From the NCBI GenBank assembly GCA_029260215.1, contig JAJDDQ010000033.1, forward strand, positions 1 through 45,517: a stretch of DNA of 45,517 bases. The letters are read 5' to 3'. How positions within the stretch are numbered: position 1 is the first letter of the stretch; every line of letters starts with the position of its first letter. Source of the stretch: Phycisphaerae bacterium. Lineage in GTDB: Bacteria > Planctomycetota > Phycisphaerae > UBA1845. Positions 780 to 20,510 of this stretch are shown in pieces. The position numbers and the translations under genes are program-made. Under the pieces are notes generated by a model. That model was not told the DNA's origin. It saw only the letters and a list, made by a program, of their open reading frames with translations, and ran no database searches.

Positions 780-3700
780 TTAGGCAGTCGTCGGACGACG
801 GAACTTGATCACCAGACCGAGCACAAAGACCATCGACAGGATGATCATGCCCCACTGGTTGACCGTCGGAACGTTGGTGAACTCCGCACAGTCCGGATCG
901 TTCTGGAAGTTGCAGGAATCCGGGCAGCATCCGTCATCAGCGCCGCAAGCGCGAATCTGGAAGTCGCTGGGACATTCGCCCGCACCATCACAGAGTTCCT
1001 CCGGATCGCATTCGTCTTCCGACGCGCGACAGAGGGTGGTATCCGACAAATCGTTCACCAAGCAGTTGCCCAGGCCATTGCACGTATCCTGGTCACTGCA
1101 AATCGTCGCGGCGTCGCCGCAATCGGTGCCAGAGGAGGCGTGATTGGGCGAGCACATGCCGCTACCGTTGCAGGTGTCCGGATCGGTGCATTCCGTGTCC
1201 GAACCGTCGCCGCATGCGGTACCGTTGGAAGCATCGTTATCCTGACACGCACCGGCGAGGCAGGTGTCCGGATCCGTGCAGTCCGAGTTGGCGGAGCTGC
1301 CACACGACGTGCCATCGGCCTCGTCATTGCCCTGGCACATGCCGGCACCGTCACAGGTGTCCGGGTTCAGGCAATCATCATCCGTGCCGTCACCACAAGC
1401 GGCGCCGGACATCGCGTGATTGTCCTGACACACACCGGCAAGGCAGGTGTCCGGATCCGTGCATTCGGTATCCAAAACGTCGCCGCAACCCGTGCCGTCA
1501 GCTTCGTCATTGCCAAGGCATGTACCCGCACCGTCACAGGTATCCGGGTTCAGGCAATCGTCGTCCGTGCCATCGCCGCAGGCGGTGCCCATCGACGCGA
1601 GGTTGTCCTGACATGTCCCAGCACCGTCACAGGTGTCGGCTGGGTTGCAGGTCGTATCCGTGGCGTCGCCACAGGCGGACCCGGAGGCATCCAACGTGCA
1701 CGTGGACGAGCAGCAGTCGCCGTCGTCGTTGTTGCCATCGTCGCATTCCTCGCCCGCATCCACGGTACCGTTTCCGCAACATCCGTTCATGGCACCCGGC
1801 GTCTCAAAGGCGTCCGGAGAACCGAACGAGCCGATCGCGAAATCGCCCGTGGTATCTTCACAACGATAAACGTGAGCGGGGACAAAGTTGCCGTCCGGTC
1901 CGACGCCACCAGTTTGGCCGCCCTGACCGTCGAACATGTAATCCCACTCGTTGAATTCGCTGGTCGGCGGATTGGCCGTCTCGACGAGCGAGATAGCATC
2001 CTGGATACCGGCCCACGCAGGTGCGTCAATGTTGCCATCGCGATTGGTGTCAACCAAGTTACCCACCGCAGAGTTGAAGCCCGCGACAAGCATATGCGTC
2101 AGGTTTTCACCATTCTCAAAGTTCAGAGAAACCTCGAGGTCAGGCGCACCGAACGTGCCGGCGAAGACAGCATCACCCACAACCAGATAACCATCGGCGG
2201 GAATCACCAGGCCGGTCAAGTCGACAGCTTCCTCGATGCTACCACTACGACTACCGGGGTTACCGCTGCCGTCACCACCATCGTCACCGATGGTCATGTA
2301 GGTCAGGCCGTCGAGCGACGTACCGGGCGTGCCGACGATTTCGAAGTACTCGTCATCCGAACCCGGATTGTCAATGCGCAACTCATTGATTCGCGCATCA
2401 ACACCATTGGTGCATGCAGCCGTGCAATCCGAATCGTCACCCTGGTACACACCACCACCAGCTTCGCAGTCAGGCTGCGTCAAATCGGTAGCACAGAATC
2501 CTGCGTAGCAGCAGGCACCAGTCGGAAGGACGCAAGTGATGGCCAAGTTTGATGGGCCTAGCTGTGCTGGCGAAAATCCGCCAAGGCGAATCTTGTAGCA
2601 ATTGCCAGCCACAACGGCCGTTGAAGCGATGGAAGAGAAACCCGCACATCCTGCACCGTCGTCGTTGCACTCAACAAGCTCGGCACCGGTCGGCGGACAC
2701 GGCAGAACGCTGCAATCAGCGCCGCCCGCGTCATAAATCGCGATACGCGTATCGTGCCCGGTGTCGCCCGTGGTCGGGTCACCGTCGTTGCACGTGCTGG
2801 CCACAAGCGTACCCGTGCAGGTCGCGTTGTAGTTGAACCAGATGTCAGCGAAGAGCTGGCCGCCGTCTGTACCGTACTCGCAGCCGGTCCCCGGGTGGGC
2901 CATGCCGTCGACGGAAGCACCGGTCGAATCGACGGCGTTGACACCATCGAAGATCGCCGTCCGGTTGTCACAGAAATCGTTGACCAGGCAACCGTCGAGA
3001 CCGGCACAATCGATGTCGAAACAATCGATAAGCCCGTCGCAGTCGTTGTCGATGGCGTCGCCGCAAGTGCCTTCGTTGGCAGGAGCCGCACCACAGTCGA
3101 TCGCACAGTTGCACTGATCTTCACCGATACCGGCGTCACAAACCGTGTCGCCGCATGCGGACGGTCCAACCTCGATATCGTCGATGGCCATGTCACCCGC
3201 AAAGCCGCCGCCGCCAACACCCGTGATACGGATGCGCAACGTCGCACTGGACGGCAAAGCCACAGTGGCCTTCAACCAGACATCGCCCTGGGTGCCCGTG
3301 GCGATCACGGTCGGCACGGAGAACGACGTGCAGTCGTCCGTGCTGAACGAAACGGAGAGCTCTCCGCGGTCCGCACCGAGCATGTGATACCAGAAACCGA
3401 GCTCCGGATTGGTCACAGCGGTCGTGTCGTAGCAGGAACTCAGCAAATTGAGCGTGTCATCGGTACACGGCGTGCTGGCTTCCATGTAGGCGTAGTTACC
3501 CGTCGCATCGCCGATCGTGTGGTCGACGCTCGGACCGGTGCCCGGCGAACCGGTTCCGCCCTCATCAACCTGCCAATCATTGCTGTCGCCGGATTCGTTG
3601 GCCCAGTCCGGACCGATCGTGCAAGCGGATCCGCAGGTTCCGGCGCACAACGCGTCGTCCTCGAAATCCTCAACATGCGGGAAGACCGAGATGACCGCAC

Positions 3701-5321
3701 CACAGGGGCAGCCGCAAGCGGGCGCCCCGGCGCAATCAGCGTCGGCACAGTCGATGTCGCCATCGAAGTCGTTGTCGATGCCGTCGGCACAATCTTCGGG
3801 AGCGGAGGCGAGGCAAGCGATGTCGAGCGTACCCGTCTCATCACTGCCGTTGAAGCCGCTGACGCGCATCAGGTAGGTGTTGCCTGACGTTACCAAAGCG
3901 CTGGCCTCTGCGGCGAATCCGGAACCCAAACCGCAGGTATCATCCGCACAACCGATGGCAGCCACCGGCGGACAGGTGCCCTCGCCAAAGATTTCCAAAA
4001 CCGTATCCGGCTCGACTGCATCGGCGCATCCCGCACCGGCCGTCACTTGGCCCGTGCATGAAGCGGTGTAAGCAAACCAGACGTCGTCGGCCAGGTTGGC
4101 GTCACAAGCGATTGGAGCCGTTCCGTCGAGTGTCGCGCCGGTTGTATCAAAAGCGTGTGATCCGTCGCCAACCGCGACCGCACCCACGCAATCATCGTTG
4201 GACGCACAGGAAATATCGAGCGTTCCAAGCTCAGAACCACCATTGAAACCGCCGAGGCGGATCATGTAGGTGTTTCCAGCGACAACGGAGACGTTCGCAT
4301 CGGCGGCAAAGCCGGAGCCGGTGCCGCACGTGTCATCGGCACAACCGATGGTCGTCGCGAGGCCCGCACAAGTGCCTTCACCGAAAACCTCAAGAACAGT
4401 ATCAGGCTCGGCAGCATCATTGCAGCCAGCCTCAATCAACGCACCACCGGTGCAGGTCGCGGTGTACGCAAACCAGACGGCTGGACCAAGATTTCCGTCG
4501 CAAGCCGCAGGAGCAGACCCATCGAGCGTGGCCAAATTTGTATCGAACGCGAACGATCCTTCGCCGACCGCTGTCGCACCGGCACAAAGATCATTCACCG
4601 GGATATTGCAATGCGGGTCCGCTACGCAATCAGCGTCGGCACAGTCGATGTCGCCATCGACGTCGTTGTCCAGGCCGTCATCGCAGATTTCCGCAGCAGC
4701 CGGAGCACAGGAAATATCGAGTGTGCCGACCTCAGCCGCACCATTGAATCCGCTGATACGGATCAGGTAGACGTTTCCTGACATCACGGCTCCGCCGGTC
4801 AAAGCAGCGAAACCGGATCCTGTACCGCAGGTGTCGTCAGCACAACCGAGCGTTGTCGCCGCTGGCGGAGGACATGTCCCTCCAGTGAAGACCTCAAGGA
4901 CGGTGTCCGGCTCGATGGCGTCGTTGCATCCCGCACCAACCGACACGGTACCCGTGCAGGAAGCGGTGTATGCAAACCAGACGGCTGGACCCAAGTTGCC
5001 GTCGCAGGCAACTGGGGCTGTTGCATCAAGGGTCGCACCGGTCGTGTCGAACGCGAACGATCCGTCACCAACCGCAGTTGCGGTCAGACACAGGTCATTG
5101 GCGGGGCCTGGTCCTTCCGCCGGTTGATTCTGCGGCTTGTCAGCCTGGCGGGCCATCTTTACCGCCTCGTACTTGTCGAGGCCGCTGATGTTGGCGACTT
5201 CGCCATTGCCACCCTTGGAGAAGCCTTCTTCAATACGGTTCTGCGCGTTCGACGCCTGGGCCGCAATCAAAGCGACGCTCAGGGCCGTACACAGAACGGG
5301 CATCCACTTTCTACTAGTCAT
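780..5321 (-). CDS. Giant modular secreted protein with IPTL-CTERM sorting tail
   Basis: This 1513-aa protein has a signal peptide (about 1-26, cut near ASNA-Q). Next come three tandem beta-domains of about 130 aa (75-205, 242-371, 375-503), each with NDLC/NDDC...VWFAYTA.CTG...EPDTVLE.F...GCADDTCG...GTLDI.C. They are separated by Asp-rich Ca-binding linkers ([15 protein letters not shown]). A MAM/jelly-roll-like region follows (about 548-720), then a fourth related domain (780-930), one ACCYAGFC-type repeat (935-966), a lamin-tail-like domain (about 970-1175), a DUF4215-type Cys repeat ([12 protein letters not shown]) and many short CGD...C..PDTC.G.G.C repeats (1215-1450). The end is [10 protein letters not shown], a hydrophobic helix and KFRR, the pattern of IPTL-CTERM signals handled by exosortase H. 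ATG at 5321 has AAAGG 7 nt upstream. It is probably surface-anchored; ligand unknown. No exosortase gene is in the window. Confidence 0.85.
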
Positions 5322-5452: not shown

Positions 5453-6148
5453 TCAAGCGTGGAGAGACGCGAGAGCTGGCGGGGCGCGGGGGCGTGAAAT
5501 CGCTGGTACACAGCGGGCAAACAAACGATCGGTCCGCAGCACGATCAGCGCGACAGACTTATCGATGCAATGTGAAAACGTAACGGCATATTGGCCGTTG
5601 CGGACGCGGACAATGATTTCCACGAGCCAAGCGCTCGCAAAAGCCAGAACCAGCGCGATCGAAACATAACCCAAACCACGACCGAGGAGCGACAGCAGAA
5701 GGCTGTTCTCCTGCGTGCCCGCCAAGAGGCCATGCCTGAAGGCCAGCGGGCGAATGGCCAACTCGACCAGTATCCAGCCATAGCTGAGCAGGAACGGGCT
5801 GAAGCCAATCCGCCTGGTCATGACTGAACCAAGGAACGCGTACAGCGCCGGGGCGCCAGCTACGAGCGCGATGTTCGTCAGAGTGATTTCAAAGTTGAAT
5901 GAGTCGAAAAGCTGTGCGAATCCGAGAAGGCTCACGCCCCAAACCGCTCCGCCGATGCAAGCCCAAACGGGTGTCAAAACACGAACCGACCACAACACGG
6001 GCAGTATGGCCAACAGCCCAAGCCAAGGCAGCTTCGGGGTGGCCAGCGCAGCCGCCAAGACATAGGCAGACAGCACGAGTGCGGGCGCAATGCGCAGCAT
6101 CGCGAAGCCGCGGCCACATCCCAATTTGTTGTCGCTCGTACGACTCAT
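5453..6148 (-). CDS. Lnt-like integral membrane protein lacking the nitrilase domain
   Basis: About 231 aa, mostly hydrophobic, with roughly six membrane segments. The stretch WLGLLAILPVLW, then a segment ending ALYAFLGSVMTRR, then YGWILVELAIRPLAF...GLL and GRGLGYVSIALVLAFASAWLVE, resembles the N-terminal membrane half of apolipoprotein N-acyltransferase (Lnt). There, the lines before the catalytic domain read W...E..R...GFPW...G and G..GVS.LV...NALLAE. The carbon-nitrogen hydrolase domain with Glu-Lys-Cys is absent: after the last helix only about 45 mostly charged residues remain. It may be a truncated paralogue or a membrane partner. ATG 6148 was chosen because the longer frame to 6247 is low-complexity; no clear SD is visible, and ATG 6100 is an alternative. 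Confidence 0.5.
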   Translation of the reverse strand: MSRTSDNKLGCGRGFAMLRIAPALVLSAYVLAAALATPKLPWLGLLAILPVLWSVRVLTPVWACIGGAVWGVSLLGFAQLFDSFNFEITLTNIALVAGAPALYAFLGSVMTRRIGFSPFLLSYGWILVELAIRPLAFRHGLLAGTQENSLLLSLLGRGLGYVSIALVLAFASAWLVEIIVRVRNGQYAVTFSHCIDKSVALIVLRTDRLFARCVPAISRPRAPPALASLHA

Positions 6149-6554
6149 GAACAGGTCCGAACAGTCAGCCGTTCTTGGCCACGGTACCCACGAGGCACCA
6201 TGAAAACCGGGCAAAACGGCGTTCGATTTGGGTGGCACCCTGCACACGTTTCCATGCGCGGACTACCGGACCCTGTTTGTCACATCCCTATAACTACCAA
6301 AAGCACCTATCGAAAGTCAAGCCTTAACGGACGTTCTCGAGGCTGGCAGCGAAAGTTTTTCAAGTCAGGCACAACAGGCAATACCAGCCCATATATCCGA
6401 AGCGGTACAATCGGAAATTGTTGCCTTGGAGACAGGTGCTGGCGCTTCAAAAAACGGGTTGCGTGACAAACAGTCGTCGCAATCTCAGCGATGTTCAGGG
6501 TCATCCGCGCGAATTGAGTTCGTGGCTGGCCGCATAACTTAGAGCGAAGCTGAT
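6149..6554. other. Intergenic stretch without a recognisable gene
   Basis: About 400 bases lie between the Lnt-like gene and the monoheme lipoprotein gene. No ORF with a plausible start and no strong hairpin was seen. It presumably carries the promoter of the Lnt-like gene, but no convincing -35/-10 pair stands out. Confidence 0.4.
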
Positions 6555-7043
6555 CTAAAGCGAGGCGAGAAAGGCTTCGAGATTGGCGAGCTGCTGGTCG
6601 GAAATGTCGGGCGGAGCGCTGAAATGACCGCCGGATTGACGAAGCTGCCGATTCAGGGTCTCAAAAACGGCACCGACGAGGACGGGAGCGTCCAGGGCGC
6701 ACCCGCCTGACGCGTCGTCGCAGTGGCATCCGGTGCAACCGTTGTTGTTAAAGAATTCTTCGCCCAGAGAGGCTACCGGGTCGGCTAGGGCGTCGCCGGC
6801 TCCGGAATCGACTCCGCCGCCGTTATTTCCACCGTCGATCGGCGGTTCGGGGAGATTTTCGTCCAACGTGACGGCGATATCCGTCAGCAGCAGATCGAGC
6901 GAGGTCTGCCCCTGGACGGTGAGGGCGTCAAGAATGAGAAAACGGGCATCCGTTCCGCAGCCGCACGTCGCAACCAACGCGGCGATGGCAGAAAATGACG
7001 CGAAACGTAGGGGCTGACGTTGGAGAATGTTCTTGTAGCGCAT
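6555..7043 (-). CDS. Monoheme c-type cytochrome lipoprotein
   Basis: 162 aa. An N-terminal hydrophobic stretch ends in VATCGCG, a likely lipobox (Cys 27 or 29). A low-complexity Gly/Pro/Asp linker (about 67-85) follows, then a small cytochrome c domain: EEFFNNNGCTGCHC (single CXXCH) and a C-terminal helix ISDQQLANLEAFLASL. This helix matches the [LI]SD[ED]-[EQ][LI]..L..YL end of class I cytochromes. Where the family normally has the axial Met (xMPP) the sequence has SAPP; a His three residues earlier (GGHFSAPP) could be the sixth ligand. It starts 3 nt after the stop of the pentaheme gene, so the two are cotranscribed and probably translationally coupled. It is predicted to be an outer-membrane or periplasmic electron carrier next to the conduit genes. 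Confidence 0.7.
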   Translation of the reverse strand: MRYKNILQRQPLRFASFSAIAALVATCGCGTDARFLILDALTVQGQTSLDLLLTDIAVTLDENLPEPPIDGGNNGGGVDSGAGDALADPVASLGEEFFNNNGCTGCHCDDASGGCALDAPVLVGAVFETLNRQLRQSGGHFSAPPDISDQQLANLEAFLASL

Positions 7044-7046
7044 GTT

Positions 7047-7631
7047 CTATTTCCCGTTCCGGCTGTTGGGTCGTCCCGGTTTCAAGAGGAATTCGCCGCC
7101 GAAATGGGCATCGTGACAAGCGATGCAATTCGACGCGTTGTCACCGGCGTGTGCGGGCTGGCTGAGGTCTTCCGGGTAATCGTGGCAATCTGCACAGGTT
7201 TCGAGCACGGAGAGATTCAGCAATGCCAGATGGCTGGAACGGTGCGGGTTGTGGCAGGCGAGACATTCCCCTTCGCTGACAGGTGCGTGCGTGACACGAT
7301 CGGAGAAATAATCTTCGTGACACTCGGCGCAGGTGTCCATGAAGTTGGATTTGGGCTTCATGTACTGCGACGGTGTGTGACAGGCTGAACATTGGTGGGC
7401 GCGGTACGGCTCGTGAATCGAACGTACATTGGCGGCTAGTTGCGAACCGGGTTCGTCGGACTTCTCGGTTTCGGGAACAGCGACACCTGATTCCGGCGCG
7501 ACTGCTGCGACGGGGGCTGGCTGCGGAATTTCGAAGAAGAAGTTCTTCAGGCGGAGTCGCGACTCGGTCGAGCAACTGATCGCGATCGCAACCGCGAAGG
7601 TCAGTGTTGCCAGGCACGCTGTCTTTCGCAT
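7047..7631 (-). CDS. Pentaheme c-type cytochrome lipoprotein
   Basis: 194 aa. The signal sequence ends AVAIAISC-STES, a lipobox-like site at Cys 20. After a Pro/Ala-rich linker come five CXXCH hemes: CSACH, CAECH, CLACH, CADCH and CIACH. They are spaced and followed by HxPH/NPH-type second histidines as in doubled-CXXCH (cytochrome c3/c7-like) proteins, which suggests bis-His hemes. ATG 7631 has GAAAGG 7 nt upstream. It is first in a two-gene minus-strand unit with the monoheme lipoprotein and is divergent from the beta-barrel gene. A lipidated pentaheme is a good candidate for the periplasm-facing donor that docks to the barrel; this role is inferred. Confidence 0.8.
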   Translation of the reverse strand: MRKTACLATLTFAVAIAISCSTESRLRLKNFFFEIPQPAPVAAVAPESGVAVPETEKSDEPGSQLAANVRSIHEPYRAHQCSACHTPSQYMKPKSNFMDTCAECHEDYFSDRVTHAPVSEGECLACHNPHRSSHLALLNLSVLETCADCHDYPEDLSQPAHAGDNASNCIACHDAHFGGEFLLKPGRPNSRNGK

Positions 7632-7689
7632 GTCGAACGCCTTTCAAATCGCGTTGATGTCGCAAAGTCTTTCGGTGCCATTCTCACAA

Positions 7690-7717
7690 ATACTAATGAA
7701 CCCGCGGCAGCATGCAA
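7690..7717 (-). promoter_or_regulatory. Possible promoter of the pentaheme-monoheme unit
   Basis: TTGCAT (7712-7717, read on minus), 16 nt, then TAGTAT (7690-7695). The match to sigma-70 consensus is only partial. It lies about 60 nt upstream of the ATG in the divergent gap 7632-7902. Confidence 0.25.
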
Positions 7718-7902
7718 CATCATTGTCGCGGTTCTGTTTGGCAGTGCGTTTTCGAGGAGGTCTTGGGGGGGATGGAAGTGTGAAGCTGAAAAAGATCGTT
7801 GCGATGAGTGGTTTGTTCGCCTAGTCTCGCCGCACGGTCGTTCGCCCGATCGCCCTTGGCGTGGTGCGCGATGGCGGGCGACACAGTCTTCGAGGTCCGA
7901 CG

Positions 7903-9963
7903 ATGGGCGCCGCGGTTAAGACGCAACGACTCATATTATTGGCTTCCATCGCCTTCGCGACGTCGATTGGCCTGCCCGCGCTTGCCCAGGAAAAGGACAA
8001 GACCGACGAAACGGCTACCCGCTGGTTTACGCTCGATGTCGGCGACGCCTATTTCGAGATCGAAGCCCAATACGATTACATCGACGTGGAATCCAAGGTT
8101 CGCAGCGGACCTCGGCCTCGGCGGCGGCGGCAGACCAATCGGGAGTCGGGTTTTGAGGAGCGCGTAGGGTTCGACCTGGCTGGTTCGATTCTGGACCCGC
8201 GATTCATCAACTATCGGGCGGACCTGAGTTTCGCACTCGCACAGAATCGATTCGACGAGCGCGGCGTCTTCGGAACGCGTACCGACAACGACAACGGCTA
8301 CCTGCTGGAATACAACGCGCGCATGAACTTCCTGCAAGGCAAAAAATTCTCGGGGTCGGTGTACGGACGGCGAAACGACGACCGCATCAACCGTCGTTTT
8401 CAGCCAACATTGAAGCAGCGGACGACCACCTTTGGTACGAGCTGGACCTATGCACATGCGAAGCTTCCGATGGAATTGTCGTATGATTTTCGGCGTACGG
8501 ATCGCTCGGGCAATCGCGACAGCCTGGACAATGAGCAATACCTCGACAGCGTGCTGCGCTACCACACCGACTGGAACATCTCCGACACGCAACAACTCAA
8601 GGTCAACTACGAGCACGCCGAAACGGAACAGGAATATCAGGGCACGCGCGACCTGTTCAAGACGACGCGCGATCTGTTCAGGGTCGATCACGAGCTCGCC
8701 TTCGGGCCTGAAGATAAGCACACGCTCAACACGCGCGTCCGCTGGCAGGAGGAGTCCGGCGATTTCGCGCGGGACATTTTCGAGGTCGGGCCGGAGTTAC
8801 GACTTCTTCACAGCAAGGATTTCAGTACGACGTATCGTTACCAGTTCAACCGCGAGCGCTACGCGGGGCTGGATGTCGAAACACAGCGGTTTGACTTTCA
8901 GGCTGTCCATCAGGTTTACACGAACCTGACGACGACGATCGATCTGTTCGGTCTTTACGAAGACGTGGAGAACGATATCAACACCGTTCAATACGGCGGG
9001 TCGGTCAACTGGCAGTACAACCGCAGCAACCGTTGGGGGCATTTGTACGCCAACCTGTCATTGGCCTACGACACGGAAGAGGTCAGCGGCGACGATGGTC
9101 AACGCATTGTCCTGGACGAGTCGGCTACGTTTCGCGAGCCGGTCGATGTTCGGCTTCGCAATCGTAACGTGGTGTTCAGTTCCATCGTGGTGACCGACAG
9201 CAGCAATCGTCGCCTGTATCGCCCGGGGATCGATTACATCGTCGTGCGTCAAGGCAACGTCGCCCGGCTTCGGCGCGTGCGGACGGGCTTGATCGCGGAT
9301 GGGGACTCCGTGCTCATCGACTATCAGATCAGCACACCGCAGGACGGCACGCTGGACACGATTCGCAGCGACTTTTCGATCGAGCAGCGGTTCACCGGCG
9401 GCTTGACGCCTTACTACCGTCTTTCGTATCGCAACCAGGAAGACGACGTGTCATCCGGTTTTGCCCGGCGGGCGGATCGGACGGATCACCATCGCCTCGG
9501 CCTGCGTTACGAGCAGACCGGCTACACGCTTGGCGTGGAGTACGAAATCTTCGACGATACGGTAGAGCCATACGATGCGTTCCACATCAACGGGCTGGTT
9601 CATATCGTTCAGCGAACGGATCACACGGTGGACACGTCAGCCCGTTTTTCGCGTTTGTTGTTCGAGGGTGGTTTGGACAATCGCAACGTGACTATGGTGG
9701 ATGTGGAGCTGGATCACCGGTGGCGATTGTCGCGCGATATTTCGACGATCGAACGGGTGGCTTATCGATACCAGAGCGATTCGAGTCGCGGCATTACGCA
9801 GGGCTGGGATGCGTCGGCGGGTGTGAACTTCAAGATGGGGCAACTGGAAGGCGAACTGACTTTGGATTACGACCGGCTTGATCTGCCGGGATCGGAAGAG
9901 AACGACTTCGGTGTATTCTTCCGTATACGAAGGGACTTTCGGAATGTTTTGGCGCGGCGGTAG
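7903..9963 (+). CDS. Outer-membrane beta-barrel, putative porin of an electron conduit
   Basis: 686 aa. The signal peptide (about 1-28) ends LPALAQ. The rest is almost all alternating short strands rich in Tyr, Arg, Asp and Thr (for example FSTTYRYQFNRERYAGLDVE), typical of large outer-membrane barrels. Around residues 412-475 a non-barrel insert reads VVTDSSNRRLYRPGIDY...IADGDSVLIDY. There are no cysteines, so it carries no heme and lacks the CXXC pair of MtrB proper. The end is FFRIRRDFRNVLARR, without the usual terminal Phe. ATG 7903 is preferred over an upstream GTG at 7861 because CGAGG lies 7 nt before it and the signal peptide begins there. Flanked by lipid-anchored and multiheme cytochromes, it fits the porin slot of a porin-cytochrome complex. 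Family membership cannot be proved by eye. Confidence 0.7.
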   Translation: MGAAVKTQRLILLASIAFATSIGLPALAQEKDKTDETATRWFTLDVGDAYFEIEAQYDYIDVESKVRSGPRPRRRRQTNRESGFEERVGFDLAGSILDPRFINYRADLSFALAQNRFDERGVFGTRTDNDNGYLLEYNARMNFLQGKKFSGSVYGRRNDDRINRRFQPTLKQRTTTFGTSWTYAHAKLPMELSYDFRRTDRSGNRDSLDNEQYLDSVLRYHTDWNISDTQQLKVNYEHAETEQEYQGTRDLFKTTRDLFRVDHELAFGPEDKHTLNTRVRWQEESGDFARDIFEVGPELRLLHSKDFSTTYRYQFNRERYAGLDVETQRFDFQAVHQVYTNLTTTIDLFGLYEDVENDINTVQYGGSVNWQYNRSNRWGHLYANLSLAYDTEEVSGDDGQRIVLDESATFREPVDVRLRNRNVVFSSIVVTDSSNRRLYRPGIDYIVVRQGNVARLRRVRTGLIADGDSVLIDYQISTPQDGTLDTIRSDFSIEQRFTGGLTPYYRLSYRNQEDDVSSGFARRADRTDHHRLGLRYEQTGYTLGVEYEIFDDTVEPYDAFHINGLVHIVQRTDHTVDTSARFSRLLFEGGLDNRNVTMVDVELDHRWRLSRDISTIERVAYRYQSDSSRGITQGWDASAGVNFKMGQLEGELTLDYDRLDLPGSEENDFGVFFRIRRDFRNVLARR

Positions 9964-9988
9964 TGCTTTGTAAAGCTTGAAACAAAGT

Positions 9989-10093
9989 GTGGGTGCCCCA
10001 CCTCTTCAGAGGTGGGGAAGTCGAATAGCCCTTGGATTCGACTCCCCCACGGCTAAAGCCGTGGGGCACCCGGCCCGCCAATTGAGTCGTGAC
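9989..10093. repeat. 105-bp dispersed palindromic repeat, copy 1
   Basis: The element begins GTGGGTGCCCCACCTC and ends CAATTGAGTCGTGAC. It contains the hairpins CCCCACCTCT/AGAGGTGGGG and CCCCACGGCT/AGCCGTGGGG, a middle GTCGAA...TTCGAC pair, and outer arms GGGTGCCCCAC/GTGGGGCACCC. It can therefore fold alternatively as separate hairpins or as a branched structure. A nearly identical copy lies at 20406-20510, and its first hairpin recurs at 31845-31879. It occupies the gap between the barrel and NHL genes; the rest of 9964-10231 holds no gene. Confidence 0.85.
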
Positions 10094-10231
10094 GGTACAC
10101 TAGCGCGGTGGTACGTGAATGTTGTATGTTTTGGGACCGCCGACCTGCGAGGCGCTTCTCGTGTCGCACGCGACACGGCTAAACGGGTGAGGACGACATT
10201 CTGGTGAGGATGACATTAGGATGCTGACGAC

Positions 10232-11320
10232 GTGACGGATTGCATCGGACGACATGCTTACGACAAGAAACCGACCCTGACTGGGGGATGGTCTCGCTGC
10301 GCGCAGATCGGCATCTGTGTCCTGTCGATTGTTCTGCTCGACGGTTGCGGGCGGGCGCGGGGGCCTTTGTTCGAGCAGATCGGCACGCCGCGCGTTTGGC
10401 CTGCGTCGCCGGCTGCTCCACGCATCCGATTCGTCGGCGTGCTGCGCGGCAGTGAAGACCTGAACGCTGAGGTGTCGTCCGGAGAGTCGTTCAAGGCTGC
10501 CTTCCGTGGTGTGAGGCCGCCGATCGCGTTTTCAGGCCCGCACGCCATCGCGGTTCACGCCAACAACACGTGGCTGGCTGTCACCGACGTTTCGCTGGCG
10601 GCTGTTCACATCATCGACCTTGCGAACCGCACGCACACGCTTACGCGAGGCTGGTCCGACGAGCGTTTCGAGGTTCCGGTCGGCGCTGCGTGGGCGGGCG
10701 ACGAACTCTACATCGTCGACGGCGGACGCGGGGAAGTCATCGCCCTCGACCTCAACGGACGCCATCTGAGACACTTTGGCCAAGGGATATTGAAACGTCC
10801 GGTGGGTGTGACCTATGTACCGTCACGCGATCGACTTTACGTTGTCGACGGCGGCGGACACAACATCCACGTATTCGACCGAGCCGGCGCGGAGACAGCC
10901 GTCATCGGATCGCGCGGCACGGATTGCGGCCAATTCAATTTTCCGTCGCACATCGCCAACGACGGCGAGCGATTGCTCATCGCGGACGGGGCCAACGCTC
11001 GGGTGCAGTTGCTGAGTCTCGACGGCGGCTGCCTCGCGTCTTTCGGTCAAAAGGGTGACGGGGCCGGTGATTTTTCCCTGCCCAAGGGCGTTGCGTTTGA
11101 TTCGGCAGGCCACCTCTTTGTGGCGGATGCTCACTTTGAGAATATCCAGGTTTTCAATGATGCGGGCCAACTCTTGATGGCATGGGGCGAGGAGGGTAGT
11201 GAGAAGGGTGCGTTCTCACTGCCGGCGGGGTTGGCCATCGACGGTGATGACCGCATCTGGGTGGCGGACGCGGGGAATCGCAGAATTCAGGTGTTCGAAT
11301 ACGTCGGAGCGGAACCATGA
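10232..11320 (+). CDS. NHL-repeat beta-propeller lipoprotein
   Basis: 362 aa from a GTG start (GGATG 9-13 nt upstream). The N-terminal hydrophobic stretch ends LLDGC-GR, a lipobox at about Cys 37. The body is a propeller of roughly 40-residue NHL blades, e.g. RPVGVTYVPSRDRLYVVDGG, FPSHIANDGERLLIADGANARV, LPKGVAFDSAGHLFVADAHF and LPAGLAIDGDDRIWVADAGN. The blades share the pattern P.G[VI]A.D....[LI][YFW][VI]AD..N.R[IV]QVF. Its stop overlaps the ATG of the large cytochrome gene by 4 nt (ATGA), so the two are translationally coupled. NHL proteins of this kind accompany multiheme cytochromes in known electron-transfer clusters, probably as docking or assembly scaffolds; the role here is inferred. 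Confidence 0.8.
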   Translation: MTDCIGRHAYDKKPTLTGGWSRCAQIGICVLSIVLLDGCGRARGPLFEQIGTPRVWPASPAAPRIRFVGVLRGSEDLNAEVSSGESFKAAFRGVRPPIAFSGPHAIAVHANNTWLAVTDVSLAAVHIIDLANRTHTLTRGWSDERFEVPVGAAWAGDELYIVDGGRGEVIALDLNGRHLRHFGQGILKRPVGVTYVPSRDRLYVVDGGGHNIHVFDRAGAETAVIGSRGTDCGQFNFPSHIANDGERLLIADGANARVQLLSLDGGCLASFGQKGDGAGDFSLPKGVAFDSAGHLFVADAHFENIQVFNDAGQLLMAWGEEGSEKGAFSLPAGLAIDGDDRIWVADAGNRRIQVFEYVGAEP

Positions 11321-13116
11321 TTCAGGGTACACGACATTGGGCGGTGGTGGCGTGCGTTGTCGGCGCGTCCGTCGCGATGGCGGACGAGTCCATTGTGAAT
11401 TCGCCGCACGACCTTTCCGCCCGCAGTCCGAACCCGATTCGCGCGGTCGATGAGGGGCGCATTTGTATTTTCTGCCACGCACCACACAACGCAGCCCCGC
11501 AAACGCCGCTGTGGAATCGTGAAAATCCGCGCACGCATTACCGCGTCTATCGCAGTTCGACCACCGACGCCCGTATCGATCAGCCGTCCGGCTCGTCCAA
11601 GATGTGTCTGAGCTGCCACGACGGCTCTATGGCGCTTGGCAACGTGCTGTCACGCAACGTCAACGATCCGATTGTCGTGACGGCTCGGACGATGCCGCCC
11701 GGAACCTCGGACCTGACCAATGATCTGTCCGACGATCACCCGATCGGGTTTCGTTATGATCGAGCACTCTCCAACATTGATTCGCAGATCCGCCCGCCGG
11801 AGATCGTCAGCCCCATATTGCCGCTCGGGGCCCACAATGAAATGCACTGCTCGACCTGTCACGATCCGCACAACAACCAACTGGGCGACTTCCTGCGCAT
11901 CACCGACCAGATGTCAGCCATCTGCGTCACCTGCCACGATCGAGACGGCTGGCATCAATCCGCGCACGCGCTCAGCCCCAAGCGCGTCTCGAGTAGAACG
12001 GTCGATCCGACCCTACGACTCAAATACGATTCCGTTCGTGACAATGGCTGCATGAACTGCCATCGCATTCACTCCGCTCCGGGCAGGGAGCAACTGCTGC
12101 GCCACTCGGGTGACGACGACAACTGCCTGAACTGTCACGACGGAAGCGTCGCCCGTTTCAACATCGCATCCGAGGTGGGCAAATTCAGCGCCCACGACAG
12201 TCGCGATTTCGGCAGGGACCACGATCCGACGGAATCACCGTTCACCATGCGTCGCCACGTTGTCTGTGCGGACTGCCACAACCCGCACGCAGCCAAAAGC
12301 TCAACCGGACCCGTGGCGGCTGGAGCACGCGGGGCACGCGTCCGCGGAGCCATCGAGTTCGTTTCCGGTGTAACAATCACAGGTCGAGAGACAGACAATG
12401 CGGATTTCACGTATGAAATCTGCTTCAAGTGTCACGGAGACAGTGTGGCCCGCCCGCGCATCACGATCAGCCGGGACGTCACCCAAACCAATACGCGACT
12501 GGAATTCCAAACATCGAACCCATCATTCCATCCGGTGGCAGGGCCGAGACGCAACAGTGACGTGGTCAGCCTTCTACCGCCCTACCGCGTGGGCGACGTG
12601 ATTTCCTGCACGGATTGCCACAGCAGCGACAATGCCCGCTCAGCCAGCGGGTCCGGAGCGAATGGGCCTCACGGTTCGATCTTTGAACCTCTGCTCGAAC
12701 GAAACTACGAGACGGCGGACTTCACTGCGGAATCGGCTGAAGCGTACGCTTTGTGCTACAAATGTCACAATCGCGACAGCATTCTGAATGACGACAGCTT
12801 CGCAAGGCACCGCCGGCATATTTTGGCTATTCGCGCACCGTGCAGCGCCTGCCACGATGCACACGGGGTTAATCGCGGGCAAGGGAATGCCACCAACCAC
12901 GGCAGTTTGATCAACTTCGATCTATCGATCGTCAGCCCAGCCGCCACGCCGTCGGGCTTGCGTCTAGAATACCAGGACACCGGACGACTGTCCGGCAACT
13001 GCACGCTGACCTGTCACGGATTCGCACACATCGAACTGCCGTATTTCAACAGTACGGGCGGCAAGACGGCTGCGTCGTCGCGACGGATCAGGACCAATGC
13101 GGGAGCAGGGCAATGA
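11317..13116 (+). CDS. Large exported multiheme cytochrome c (11 CXXCH plus one CX3CH)
   Basis: 599 aa with an N-terminal signal peptide (about 1-22, ending VAMA-D). CXXCH hemes begin at residues about 50, 97, 178, 203, 245, 270, 317, 369, 431, 480 and 509. A twelfth site at 562-567 is CTLTCH, that is CX3CH. Many are followed by HDPH, HNPH or HDGS, as in doubled-CXXCH families, and NHL-linked cytochromes share blocks such as CHAPHNAAPQTPLWNR and DLSDDHPIGFRYD. There is no lipobox or membrane anchor, so the product is soluble periplasmic or surface-exposed. The gene overlaps both neighbours by 4 nt, between the NHL lipoprotein and the tetraheme gene. It is the best candidate for the outward-facing electron acceptor or wire of the cluster; that role is inferred. 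Confidence 0.85.
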   Translation: MIQGTRHWAVVACVVGASVAMADESIVNSPHDLSARSPNPIRAVDEGRICIFCHAPHNAAPQTPLWNRENPRTHYRVYRSSTTDARIDQPSGSSKMCLSCHDGSMALGNVLSRNVNDPIVVTARTMPPGTSDLTNDLSDDHPIGFRYDRALSNIDSQIRPPEIVSPILPLGAHNEMHCSTCHDPHNNQLGDFLRITDQMSAICVTCHDRDGWHQSAHALSPKRVSSRTVDPTLRLKYDSVRDNGCMNCHRIHSAPGREQLLRHSGDDDNCLNCHDGSVARFNIASEVGKFSAHDSRDFGRDHDPTESPFTMRRHVVCADCHNPHAAKSSTGPVAAGARGARVRGAIEFVSGVTITGRETDNADFTYEICFKCHGDSVARPRITISRDVTQTNTRLEFQTSNPSFHPVAGPRRNSDVVSLLPPYRVGDVISCTDCHSSDNARSASGSGANGPHGSIFEPLLERNYETADFTAESAEAYALCYKCHNRDSILNDDSFARHRRHILAIRAPCSACHDAHGVNRGQGNATNHGSLINFDLSIVSPAATPSGLRLEYQDTGRLSGNCTLTCHGFAHIELPYFNSTGGKTAASSRRIRTNAGAGQ

Positions 13117-13700
13117 AAATGATACATTGGAAGCGTGTCGCGATCGCAGTCACGATATCCTCACTGATAACCGGGTTGGCGGTCGCGGACCTGAAAGGCT
13201 CCAAGCACGATTTCACCCGTGCGGAATGGTCTGAGGGTGACGGCTGCGGTGCCTGCCACGTGCCGCATCAGTCGCAGATGCCCAAAGCCGCTCCGCTGTG
13301 GGATCCCGACGCGGACCTCGAGCGCACATTCGGCACACCGCCGCAGGATATCGCTCCGGGGAACGGAACACTGATGTGCATTCGCTGTCACGACGGCACG
13401 ATCGCACGGGACACGATCCCCACCGAAACCAGGAAAACGCGATTCGTCTACACGCAACACCCGGGCTTGTTCTCAACCGGGCATGGCACGAGCGATCACC
13501 CGGTCGGCATTAAGTTTCCGAACATCGATTCCGGTTTTCACCCAGCCAACATCGTGACAGCCGACGGCGCGGTCACCCTGCCGGACGATCGCGTCGAGTG
13601 CATCTCCTGCCACGATCCGCACAATCAGTCCGGCGTGGACAAAATGCTGGTCAAGAGCAATAAGGGAAGCGCCCTTTGTCTGACCTGCCACAACAAATAG
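13113..13700 (+). CDS. Tetraheme cytochrome c, doubled-CXXCH type
   Basis: 195 aa with signal peptide (LITGLAVA-D). Four hemes: CGACH (45-49), CIRCH, CISCH and CLTCH, the last ending the protein (CLTCHNK). The order of blocks, CxxCHVPH...PLWDPD, CxRCHDGT, DHPVGI, CISCHDPHNQ and GSALCLTCHNK, repeats the plan of the first four hemes of the upstream 599-aa cytochrome. It thus looks like a short paralogue, probably from an internal duplication. ATG 13113 overlaps the upstream stop by 4 nt. It is predicted to be a small periplasmic shuttle or a subunit of the same complex. Confidence 0.8.
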   Translation: MKMIHWKRVAIAVTISSLITGLAVADLKGSKHDFTRAEWSEGDGCGACHVPHQSQMPKAAPLWDPDADLERTFGTPPQDIAPGNGTLMCIRCHDGTIARDTIPTETRKTRFVYTQHPGLFSTGHGTSDHPVGIKFPNIDSGFHPANIVTADGAVTLPDDRVECISCHDPHNQSGVDKMLVKSNKGSALCLTCHNK

Positions 13701-13712
13701 CGATCGCTCGAA

Positions 13713-14852
13713 ATGGTTCAAATGACAGAAACTGCAAATGAGCGACCGAGTGTTGCCGACGTGGATACGAAACCCGCATCGCCGCACCGCTTCGCGCATC
13801 GACTCCGCCCGTTGGCAGGCCTAGTCGCATTGTGTGCGGTCTTGGTGCTGACAGGCTGCGCCGCGCCGAAGACGCGAACGCAGATCGTTTACTTTCCGTC
13901 CAATCCGGGTCAGGCCCGCGTGGTCCAATTGAAATCCTTCAACAGCCTCGACGAGATCACACCTCGGCCACTGACTTTTGCCGAATCCGTGCGCGGCGAT
14001 CGCGTCGTTCCGTTCGTCGGTCGTCCGGCGGGGTTGGCCTATGCGAACAACCGACTTTTTGTGTGTGACACTGAGTACAATTCCGTTCACGTCTGGAATC
14101 TCGAAACCGGCGCAACAGAGGTTCTTGGCGATCAAAGCGCGTTCAGCGAACCGGTTGGGGTCGCGGTGGATCAGAGCGGACGCAGCTTCATTGCGGATTC
14201 CGATGGCGGTGTTGTGCGTTCGTTTGACGAGGGTGGAAATTCGGGGCGGGCGTACCGTCCAGCCGACCGTGAAGCCTATCGCCCCGTCGCAGTCGCGACG
14301 CACGCTGGCCGCTTGTACGTGGCTGACATCGCAGCACACCACATTGACGCCTTCGACATTGACAGCGGAGACTTGCTCTTCTCGTTCGGTGGCGTCGGCA
14401 GCGAACCCGGAAAGCTGTACTTCCCGACGGGTGTGGCTGTCGCGGGCGACGGAACTCTGTACGTCAGCGACATGTTCAATGGTCGCGTGCAACACTTCAG
14501 TGCAACCGGCCAACCGCTCGATCAGATAGGCCAACCCGGCGACCGGTACGGCGACTTAGCCAAACCGCGTCAATTGGCTGTGGGGCCTGACGGTGTTGTG
14601 TTCGTTGCGGATTCCGAATTTGCCCGTATCCACCTCTTCGACGCGCAAGGCCGACTGCTGCTGCTCATTGGCGGATCCGGCGATTCGGCAGGCAGTACCC
14701 CCCTGCCGATCAGCGTGACTGTGGCGGTTTCTGTCCCAAACGCGCTGCGCGAACTCGTACCGCCGAACTTCGAGCCTGACTATTTCATCTTCACGTCCAG
14801 CAGCCTCGGAACGCATCGGCTCAGCGTATTCGCCGTCGGCAGAGCACGCTGA
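13713..14852 (+). CDS. Second NHL-repeat beta-propeller lipoprotein
   Basis: 379 aa. An unusually long N-terminal leader of about 38 aa precedes the hydrophobic stretch ending LVLTGC-AAP (lipobox at about Cys 49). NHL blades follow: RPAGLAYANNRLFVCDTEYN, EPVGVAVDQSGRSFIADSDG, RPVAVATHAGRLYVADIAAH, FPTGVAVAGDGTLYVSDMFN and KPRQLAVGPDGVVFVADSEF. It starts 12 nt after the tetraheme stop, completing the plus-strand unit. A start at the fourth codon (ATG 13722) is also possible; no SD separates them. The paralogous lipoprotein at 10232 suggests a pair of propellers acting with the two cytochromes between them. Confidence 0.8.
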   Translation: MVQMTETANERPSVADVDTKPASPHRFAHRLRPLAGLVALCAVLVLTGCAAPKTRTQIVYFPSNPGQARVVQLKSFNSLDEITPRPLTFAESVRGDRVVPFVGRPAGLAYANNRLFVCDTEYNSVHVWNLETGATEVLGDQSAFSEPVGVAVDQSGRSFIADSDGGVVRSFDEGGNSGRAYRPADREAYRPVAVATHAGRLYVADIAAHHIDAFDIDSGDLLFSFGGVGSEPGKLYFPTGVAVAGDGTLYVSDMFNGRVQHFSATGQPLDQIGQPGDRYGDLAKPRQLAVGPDGVVFVADSEFARIHLFDAQGRLLLLIGGSGDSAGSTPLPISVTVAVSVPNALRELVPPNFEPDYFIFTSSSLGTHRLSVFAVGRAR

Positions 14853-20405: not shown

Positions 20406-20510
20406 GTGGGTGCCCCACCTCTTCAGAGGTGGGGAAGTCGAAAGACCCCTGAATTCGACGTCCCCACGGCTAAAGCCGTGGGGCACCCAACCCGTCAATT
20501 GATTCGTGAC
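20406..20510. repeat. 105-bp dispersed palindromic repeat, copy 2
   Basis: Same length, order of hairpins and end sequence (ATTGATTCGTGAC) as the copy at 9989-10093. The stems are conserved and most differences fall in the middle loop (AATAGCCCTTGGATTC against AAAGACCCCTGAATTC). It sits between the divergent M28 peptidase and TMTC-like genes; the rest of 20225-20511 shows no gene. Confidence 0.85.

Follow-up and report, generated by a model that had tools for sequence, protein, structure and literature searches.

Among described systems, the one closest in its parts list to the gene cluster examined here is Uet of Tenderiales and Gallionella, which, according to the accessible text of PMC10734462, comprises an undecaheme cytochrome (UetJ), a tetraheme (UetA), a barrel (UetC), trihemes (UetDEG), a peptidyl-prolyl isomerase (PPIase; UetB) and NHL proteins (UetHI), and has been described in hosts that oxidise electrodes and iron. 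A second point of reference is OmcE, the filament cytochrome of Geobacter sulfurreducens (PDB 7TFS), in which an interfacial haem is ligated by a His of the neighbouring subunit and whose helix has a rise of 34 A (accessible part of PMC12954529). The cluster analysed here consists of seven genes at positions 6555 to 14852 of contig JAJDDQ010000033.1 from a Phycisphaerae bacterium; "the window" below means this whole contig, complete at 45.5 kb, which belongs to a 4.97-Mb genome that is 97% complete. The cluster probably encodes a Uet-like outer-membrane porin-cytochrome electron conduit, a reading backed by the parts themselves, their conservation, the predicted fold of the barrel, the OmcE homology of two of the cytochromes, a bias towards lipoboxes and a set of NHL-cytochrome fusions. 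In its 'undecaheme', an OmcE-like nanowire protomer is joined to a multiheme portion.

Gene content and source of the cluster

All seven genes are intact and form two divergent units, one on the minus strand (pentaheme and monoheme) and one on the plus strand (barrel, first NHL protein, multiheme, tetraheme and second NHL protein):

6555..7043, minus strand: monoheme c-type cytochrome, 162 aa, 1 CXXCH, downstream of the pentaheme
7047..7631, minus strand: pentaheme lipoprotein, 194 aa, 5 CXXCH, lipobox AISC
7903..9963, plus strand: predicted outer-membrane beta-barrel, 686 aa from ATG, 0 Cys
10232..11320, plus strand: NHL beta-propeller 1 (NHL1), possible lipoprotein, PF01436 at E 4e-22, LLDGC
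11317..13116, plus strand: dodecaheme ('undecaheme') cytochrome, 11 CXXCH and one CX3CH, OmcE-like in residues 30-208
13113..13700, plus strand: OmcE-like tetraheme cytochrome, 195 aa, 4 CXXCH, Sec-type N-terminus
13713..14852, plus strand: NHL beta-propeller 2 (NHL2), lipoprotein, lipobox LTGC, NHL at E 9e-19

A check of open reading frames (ORFs) and motifs confirmed what the first-pass annotation of this DNA had read from it, namely seven genes in two divergent units, a pentaheme-monoheme unit, a Cys-free barrel and two NHL proteins. The 4-nt overlaps that it had placed between three of the genes are found at two junctions, NHL1/multiheme and multiheme/tetraheme, 4 nt each. Pfam recognises Paired_CXXCH_1 in all three multihemes and, at the E values listed, NHL domains in both propellers.

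The nearest named relatives of the window are Phycisphaerae metagenome-assembled genomes (MAGs), several of them from the OFTM series of the Oslofjord tunnel study. That study discusses family UBA1845, in which we would place the window, and describes genes for iron reduction, among them a porin-cytochrome complex, in Planctomycetota MAGs; neither NHL nor Uet appears as a word in its accessible text (PMC10732223).

Conservation in near relatives and across phyla

The dodecaheme cytochrome occurs in 50 of 60 genomes of the family and order. Within the family, 29 of 36 genomes (the source genome included) carry a close copy (54-100% identity, some partial) and 23 a more distant one (44-49%, two partial), 22 having both. 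Twenty regions were taken from family and order, one of them the source genome's own paralogue, and the 19 others were searched with tblastn (regions and loci carry L numbers below). All seven window proteins found a match in 8 of the 19 and the barrel in 18 (it is absent in L042), although scores for the small tetraheme, pentaheme and NHL proteins may be cross-matches to sister genes; the co-occurrence in related genomes on which the first-pass annotation had made its proposal depend is thus present. The full order barrel - NHL1 - dodecaheme - tetraheme - NHL2 is seen in L032, L033, L035, L038, L039, L040 and L045; the remaining maps are incomplete, partly since overlapping ORFs conceal some genes, and sizes and gene borders in relatives are approximate throughout, as ORFs were called mechanically from the longest start.

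A second cluster lies in the same genome (L031; contig C14:92000-111900) and contains a dodecaheme, NHL1, barrel, pentaheme, NHL2 and a 13-haem protein, as well as a tetraheme-like match at 108989-109606. Its dodecaheme is 45-46% and its barrel 24% identical to that of the window. In a cytochrome tree made by a quick method, with a midpoint root for drawing, the window protein falls in an 18-row clade of 17 Planctomycetota and itself (support 100), and the paralogue in a separate Phycisphaerae clade within the multi-phylum part of the tree; the two clusters are therefore different, long-separated versions.

Beyond the order, a scan with the cytochrome found at least 570 GTDB stretches encoding a relative (E < 1e-3), of which the best 80 were kept (L051-L130). 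Among these 80 the tree rows represent 13 named phyla, with a few rows unplaced. Counts given for L051-L130 are unpooled; L031-L050 and L151 repeat some of the same contigs, and pooled counts hold duplicates. At least 6 kb to the left and 1 kb to the right of the cytochrome are available in 53 loci, and here a barrel is present in 50, two or more NHL proteins in 47, an OmcE-like tetraheme in 46 and a pentaheme in 36 (the pentaheme, tetraheme and NHL labels in relatives depend on thresholds set in this analysis); barrel, two NHL proteins and tetraheme occur together in 43. Where 6 kb are available on both sides (47 loci), only L056, L067 and L120 are without a barrel. The most frequent arrangement is tetraheme - NHL2 - pentaheme - barrel - NHL1 - dodecaheme, to which a 13-haem protein is often added. 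Because the seven queries match in those eight regions of the order and the set recurs across phyla, the gene set is not a product of chance.

The distribution is patchy in Planctomycetota at large, with a match in 69 of 392 genomes at E < 0.001 and in 21 (the source genome included) at E < 1e-70. Within the class to which Sedimenticola belongs (Gammaproteobacteria), a match at E < 1e-60 was obtained in 22 of 369 genomes, and in ten of these it is near full length. The ten gammaproteobacterial regions that were fetched (L151 being the contig of L068) include nine with barrel and NHL proteins and eight with an OmcE-like tetraheme; in L156 both barrel and NHL proteins are missing. Two gammaproteobacterial clusters (L150, L155) were checked for a b561-type cytochrome, and each has one next to it along with more multihemes. 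A culture-collection strain, Aromatoleum tolulyticum ATCC 51758 (L125), carries the cluster. Among other neighbours, a tetratricopeptide-repeat protein stands upstream of the tetraheme in L087, L091 and L113, with an AhpC/TSA domain in two of the three; a PPIase lies near the cluster in L111 and ResB in L108.

The first-pass annotation had proposed a distinct conduit type in a planctomycete-like bacterium. A new, planctomycete-specific type now seems scarcely credible: the well-supported planctomycete clade of the cytochrome agrees with it, as does the monoheme, which from its matches (tblastn in 8 of the 19 regions from other genomes of the order, profile in only 4 of the 80 loci) appears mainly confined to near relatives, but the same parts occur in 13 named phyla and the parts list was largely published as Uet. 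The window version is one planctomycete clade of a wider, multi-phylum kind.

The dodecaheme cytochrome

Besides its 11 CXXCH motifs, the central cytochrome has an extra CX3CH (CTLTCH) at aa 562, which was invariant in a first alignment of 12 and is kept in all 78 relatives examined later. The protein therefore likely binds twelve haems, judging from its motifs, and the "11-12 heme" of the first-pass annotation resolves into 11 CXXCH plus this one; a count of CXXCH alone was discarded as too low. Residues 30-208 form an OmcE-like tetraheme domain, and the remainder holds 7 CXXCH and the conserved CX3CH. In the predicted structure (predicted local distance difference test score, pLDDT, 84.9; predicted template modelling score, pTM, 0.82), this N-terminal domain superimposes on the OmcE filament subunit over 177 residues with Z 14.4, a root-mean-square deviation of 3.0 A and 35% identity, the runner-up among the 47 chains compared with the model standing at Z 4.1. 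By sequence the same residues match OmcE at E 6e-29, and as a profile at E 2e-43.

The C-terminal part has structural matches only to OmcS (Z 4.1) and to proteins like hydroxylamine oxidoreductase (HAO; Z 3.1-3.6). The HAO matches would be the argument for a periplasmic or surface multiheme enzyme, such as a nitrogen or metal oxidoreductase, standing beside a generic porin; we regard this as very improbable, for a Z of 3.1-3.6 is at noise level and 14 His that lie outside the haem motifs are invariant in the family, enough to ligate twelve haems on both sides, so that no open catalytic haem is evident.

The OmcE-like tetraheme and its association with NHL proteins

The separate tetraheme is of OmcE type by sequence homology, by its four CXXCH and by four distal His. 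Its best matches are PDB 9yuq (E 1.5e-15) and OmcE (7tfs; E 6.6e-6), and the four distal His of OmcE are kept in 62, 58, 65 and 65 rows of a 66-row alignment, which comprises 62 tetraheme ORFs from the loci together with the window tetraheme, OmcE, 9yuq and the dodecaheme's N-terminal domain. This conservation, and the use in OmcE of a neighbour's His at the interfacial haem, tell against the view that the conduit operates without a filament, with the tetraheme serving as a monomeric carrier at the surface or in the periplasm and the dodecaheme's OmcE-like domain being just an inherited fold. Such a conduit is nevertheless quite possible, if somewhat short of an even chance: the OmcE-like tetrahemes of the loci vary widely (20-46% identity to OmcE), and five of the 47 loci with 6 kb on both sides (L067, L076, L099, L111 and L120) have none, three of them with a barrel.

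In Desulfobacterota an OmcE match was found in 27 of 247 genomes, and eight such regions were fetched. Four of them (L141-L144) have an NHL gene beside the OmcE-like gene, with neither a window-type barrel nor a dodecaheme in the stretch; L146 and L147 show the barrel cluster, and the gene content of L145 and L148 was not resolved. NHL propellers therefore accompany OmcE-type cytochromes more widely than they accompany the conduit. The OmcE-like proteins of L141-L143 are 59, 51 and 42% identical to OmcE, and these three look Geobacter-like in that identity and in their gene order. The loci L141-L144 also carry 8- to 10-haem cytochromes along with the NHL gene, and ResB was confirmed in L142.

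The barrel

The 686-aa protein most likely starts at the ATG at 7903; an alternative GTG at 7861 would give 700 aa. Its AlphaFold2 model (pLDDT 90.1, pTM 0.80) has about 28-30 long strands by DSSP count and a small inserted beta domain near 410-478, so that a large outer-membrane barrel is confidently predicted, in line with the first-pass annotation, which had made its proposal hang on this fold. No Pfam family covers the protein. The comparison with MtrB/PioB that the annotation had called for was run as a profile search, and PF11854 (MtrB_PioB) matched neither the window barrel nor 57 homologues; MtrB_PioB was likewise found in 0 of 120 class genomes sampled, the control genomes also being without a match over the cut-off. 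As the sole query the window barrel matched 88 ORFs among the 7069 of 100 loci, and its profile finds homologues in 72 of the 80 loci of L051-L130, which had been chosen by the cytochrome only; the source genome has two barrels of this family in total. In L116 (6834-8872) the barrel gene is broken into two overlapping ORFs, probably by a frameshift or an assembly error.

Foldseek and VIA-align return many large barrels for the model, the ushers FimD and PapC being among the Foldseek matches. These ushers, the inserted beta domain and the PPIase near the cluster of one relative, L111, could suggest an export or assembly machine, in which the barrel would be an usher-like secretion channel for OmcE-type cytochromes, the NHL proteins and PPIase would be chaperones or caps, and no electrons would pass through the barrel. 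We consider this unlikely, as ushers are only some of the many barrels matched, the four OmcE regions L141-L144 are without a window-type barrel in the stretch seen, and barrel and dodecaheme stand together in L076, L099 and L111, loci in which an OmcE-like tetraheme was not seen.

The NHL proteins and the pentaheme

Across the 80 loci a strict lipobox is found in 41 of 71 NHL2 proteins, 30 of 61 NHL1 proteins and 25 of 42 pentahemes, compared with 15 of 66 barrels, 5 of 79 dodecahemes, 3 of 61 tetrahemes and 49 of 772 other ORFs (the pattern gives a false match in the window multiheme at aa 13). In the window itself, the lipoprotein assignments of the first-pass annotation hold for the pentaheme (AISC) and NHL2 (LTGC); the monoheme and NHL1 (LLDGC) do not match the strict pattern and are lipoproteins only putatively. 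Its suggestion that the propellers are a module of the system is borne out: by their sequences, the NHL proteins, found at least in pairs in 47 of the 53 loci, are a conserved and lipobox-rich component. In seven loci (L046, L047, L048, L062, L064, L066 and L072), picked for this test by their maps, a single reading frame joins NHL2 to an octaheme cytochrome, one of the fusions being confirmed by Pfam; propeller and cytochrome therefore belong together.

The five CXXCH of the pentaheme lie within 93 residues, after a linker. Directly behind the lipidated Cys, the window protein and those of close relatives carry FFFEIP or a similar sequence, a variant of an FFFDGVP-type motif whose strict form occurs in 23 of the 42 pentahemes of L051-L130 and in 0 of 4944 haem-free ORFs of the same loci (24 of 54 pentahemes when regions outside L051-L130 are pooled). 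Our guess is that this motif serves docking. Across phyla the usual position of the pentaheme gene is between NHL2 and the barrel.

Proposed function

For the Uet-like conduit we infer the placement of each haem protein, the electron path, the filament and the direction of flow. Periplasmic carriers would exchange electrons, in one direction or the other, with the pentaheme, held by its lipid anchor at the inner opening of the 28-30-strand barrel, and the barrel would be crossed or capped by haems of the pentaheme together with those in the C-terminal part of the dodecaheme. The dodecaheme would sit through or on the barrel with its OmcE-like N-terminal domain outside, offering an OmcE-type interface to which the separate OmcE-like tetraheme would attach, as a single subunit or as a filament. 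The two NHL proteins may be lipid-anchored caps, clamps or anchors that hold the cytochromes at the barrel.

Several points weigh against this reading. The structural match of the barrel is unspecific: MtrB has the highest query TM-score (0.42) among the 50 Foldseek rows shown and the longest alignment among the 50 VIA-align rows shown (431 residues, Z 17.1), yet the TonB receptors Fiu (Z 18.4) and BtuB (Z 17.4) exceed that Z. Because TonB receptors share the match, and with no profile support, kinship of the barrel with MtrB was considered and rejected. The window tetraheme is only 26% identical to OmcE. The window has no ORF of at least 60 aa with three CXXCH, and hence no counterpart of the trihemes UetDEG, and no PPIase (UetB) was found among the seven genes and the three neighbours scanned. 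No inner-membrane redox protein was recognised in the cluster, and the genome's only PF03264 (NapC/NirT) match, a 656-aa membrane multiheme, is on another contig (C23; L149, around 112585). Judged by its family, this multiheme is a candidate quinol-side partner and would suit electron export, whereas the hosts in which Uet was described oxidise electrodes and iron. For Ca. Tenderia, the accessible text of PMC5371394 reports no differential expression of the undecaheme gene when two electrode potentials were compared. In Desulfovibrio ferrophilus, where the island DFE_0448-0465 places multihemes beside NHL/propeller proteins (accessible parts of PMC9769857 and PMC8322314), deletion of outer-surface multihemes beside NHL genes left Fe(III) oxide reduction unimpaired, and PMC9769857, as far as accessible, sees no porin-cytochrome conduit in that organism; the likeness to our cluster is one of description, not of sequence.

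A bolder version of the conduit, put forward tentatively and with more doubt than confidence, makes the dodecaheme a socket for nanowires, in which an OmcE protomer is joined to a haem module that spans the barrel and by which the conduit would nucleate and feed an OmcE-type filament while the NHL lipoproteins clamp the joint. Were this so, a general junction between outer membrane and nanowire would exist in 13 or more phyla, and twice, in diverged form, in 22 of the 36 sampled genomes of this Phycisphaerae family. To our knowledge, the joining of extracellular cytochrome filaments to the outer membrane is an unsettled question, for which the set of barrel, OmcE-like tetraheme and OmcE-protomer-fused cytochrome offers a direct candidate. 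The exchange of electrons with the surroundings may also be more widespread than assumed in phyla such as Planctomycetota, Verrucomicrobiota, Bacteroidota and Calditrichota, and a role for the NHL propellers becomes testable.

Surroundings of the cluster

One further feature lies within the plus-strand unit:

9991..10071, no strand: palindromic element, arms of 36 nt, located in the 268 nt that separate barrel and NHL1; repeated at 20408-20488

The two copies resemble the double palindromes of repetitive extragenic palindromic (REP) elements, and the one in the cluster is probably such a repeat element rather than a conduit component; the barrel and NHL1 genes abut or overlap in L150, L151 and L154, among other relatives. 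A scan for promoters and terminators gave a signal no higher than in shuffled sequence. Downstream of the monoheme and on its strand is a hydrophobic 264-aa ORF (5453-6247) with no Pfam or NCBIfam match, and at 780-5321 a repetitive, secreted-looking protein of 1513 aa, which ends in VPTVNQWG, a hydrophobic stretch and an Arg tail, an ending that we take to resemble a C-terminal sorting signal.

Comparison with known systems

With MtrCAB, MtoAB and PioAB the cluster shares a large outer-membrane barrel and multihemes; it differs in the missing PF11854 match and in having no decaheme MtrA (TIGR03508, for MtrA/DmsE decahemes, reaches 28-49 bits against a cut-off of 192). PCC3 is described as having multiheme cytochromes with very many haems (medians 34 and 21; accessible text of PMC5566968), whereas no protein of our cluster has more than 12 haem motifs. 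The verrucomicrobial clusters share porin and multihemes with the window, by description and not by sequence; they combine a porin with octahemes outside Proteobacteria, and the text accessible does not mention NHL (PMC5615132). Also likened by description, not by sequence, are the clusters of a karst study, a group of 7 porin-cytochrome clusters centred on undecahemes or larger multihemes, two Planctomycetota MAGs there having porin-cytochrome clusters as well (accessible part of PMC13264449).

What is already known, then, as far as these sources are accessible, is the Uet kind and the occurrence of undecaheme-centred porin clusters in MAGs. The open literature searched held no paper joining OmcE-like cytochromes, a window-type barrel and NHL proteins as one cross-phylum conduit, though subscription papers may; the closest in print, from the parts accessible, are PMC10734462 (Uet), PMC13264449 (undecaheme clusters) and PMC12016550, in which a Geoalkalibacter locus has an OmcE-like protein and two NHL proteins. 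Within the same literature we saw neither the 13-phylum spread with one barrel family, the OmcE-protomer fusion and the kept CX3CH, nor the motif-bearing pentaheme, the NHL-octaheme fusions and the paired Phycisphaerae paralogues, some of which may be in print.

OmcE itself is homologous to both the tetraheme and residues 30-208 of the dodecaheme, with its four CXXCH and four distal His aligning, and it resembles the window further in the NHL gene that stands beside OmcE-like genes in Desulfobacterota; the difference is that barrel and dodecaheme are missing from the four regions L141-L144. The likeness to Uet is broader and, by the published parts list, takes in an undecaheme of 11-12 haems with doubled CXXCH (here 11 CXXCH and the CX3CH, with Paired_CXXCH_1), a tetraheme, a barrel and two NHL proteins, the counterparts of UetHI. 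By description the window tetraheme, with its Sec-type N-terminus, may correspond to the extracellular UetA, and the barrel is a candidate counterpart of UetC. In place of the Uet trihemes, a divergent unit of the window encodes a pentaheme and a monoheme. A bridge is provided by two gammaproteobacterial clusters: L158 has two trihemes, and in L157 three trihemes stand ahead of barrel - NHL - undecaheme (no PPIase was found among the scanned neighbours of either). Since the barrel of L157 belongs to the same family as that of the window, the window family is tied to the published Uet.

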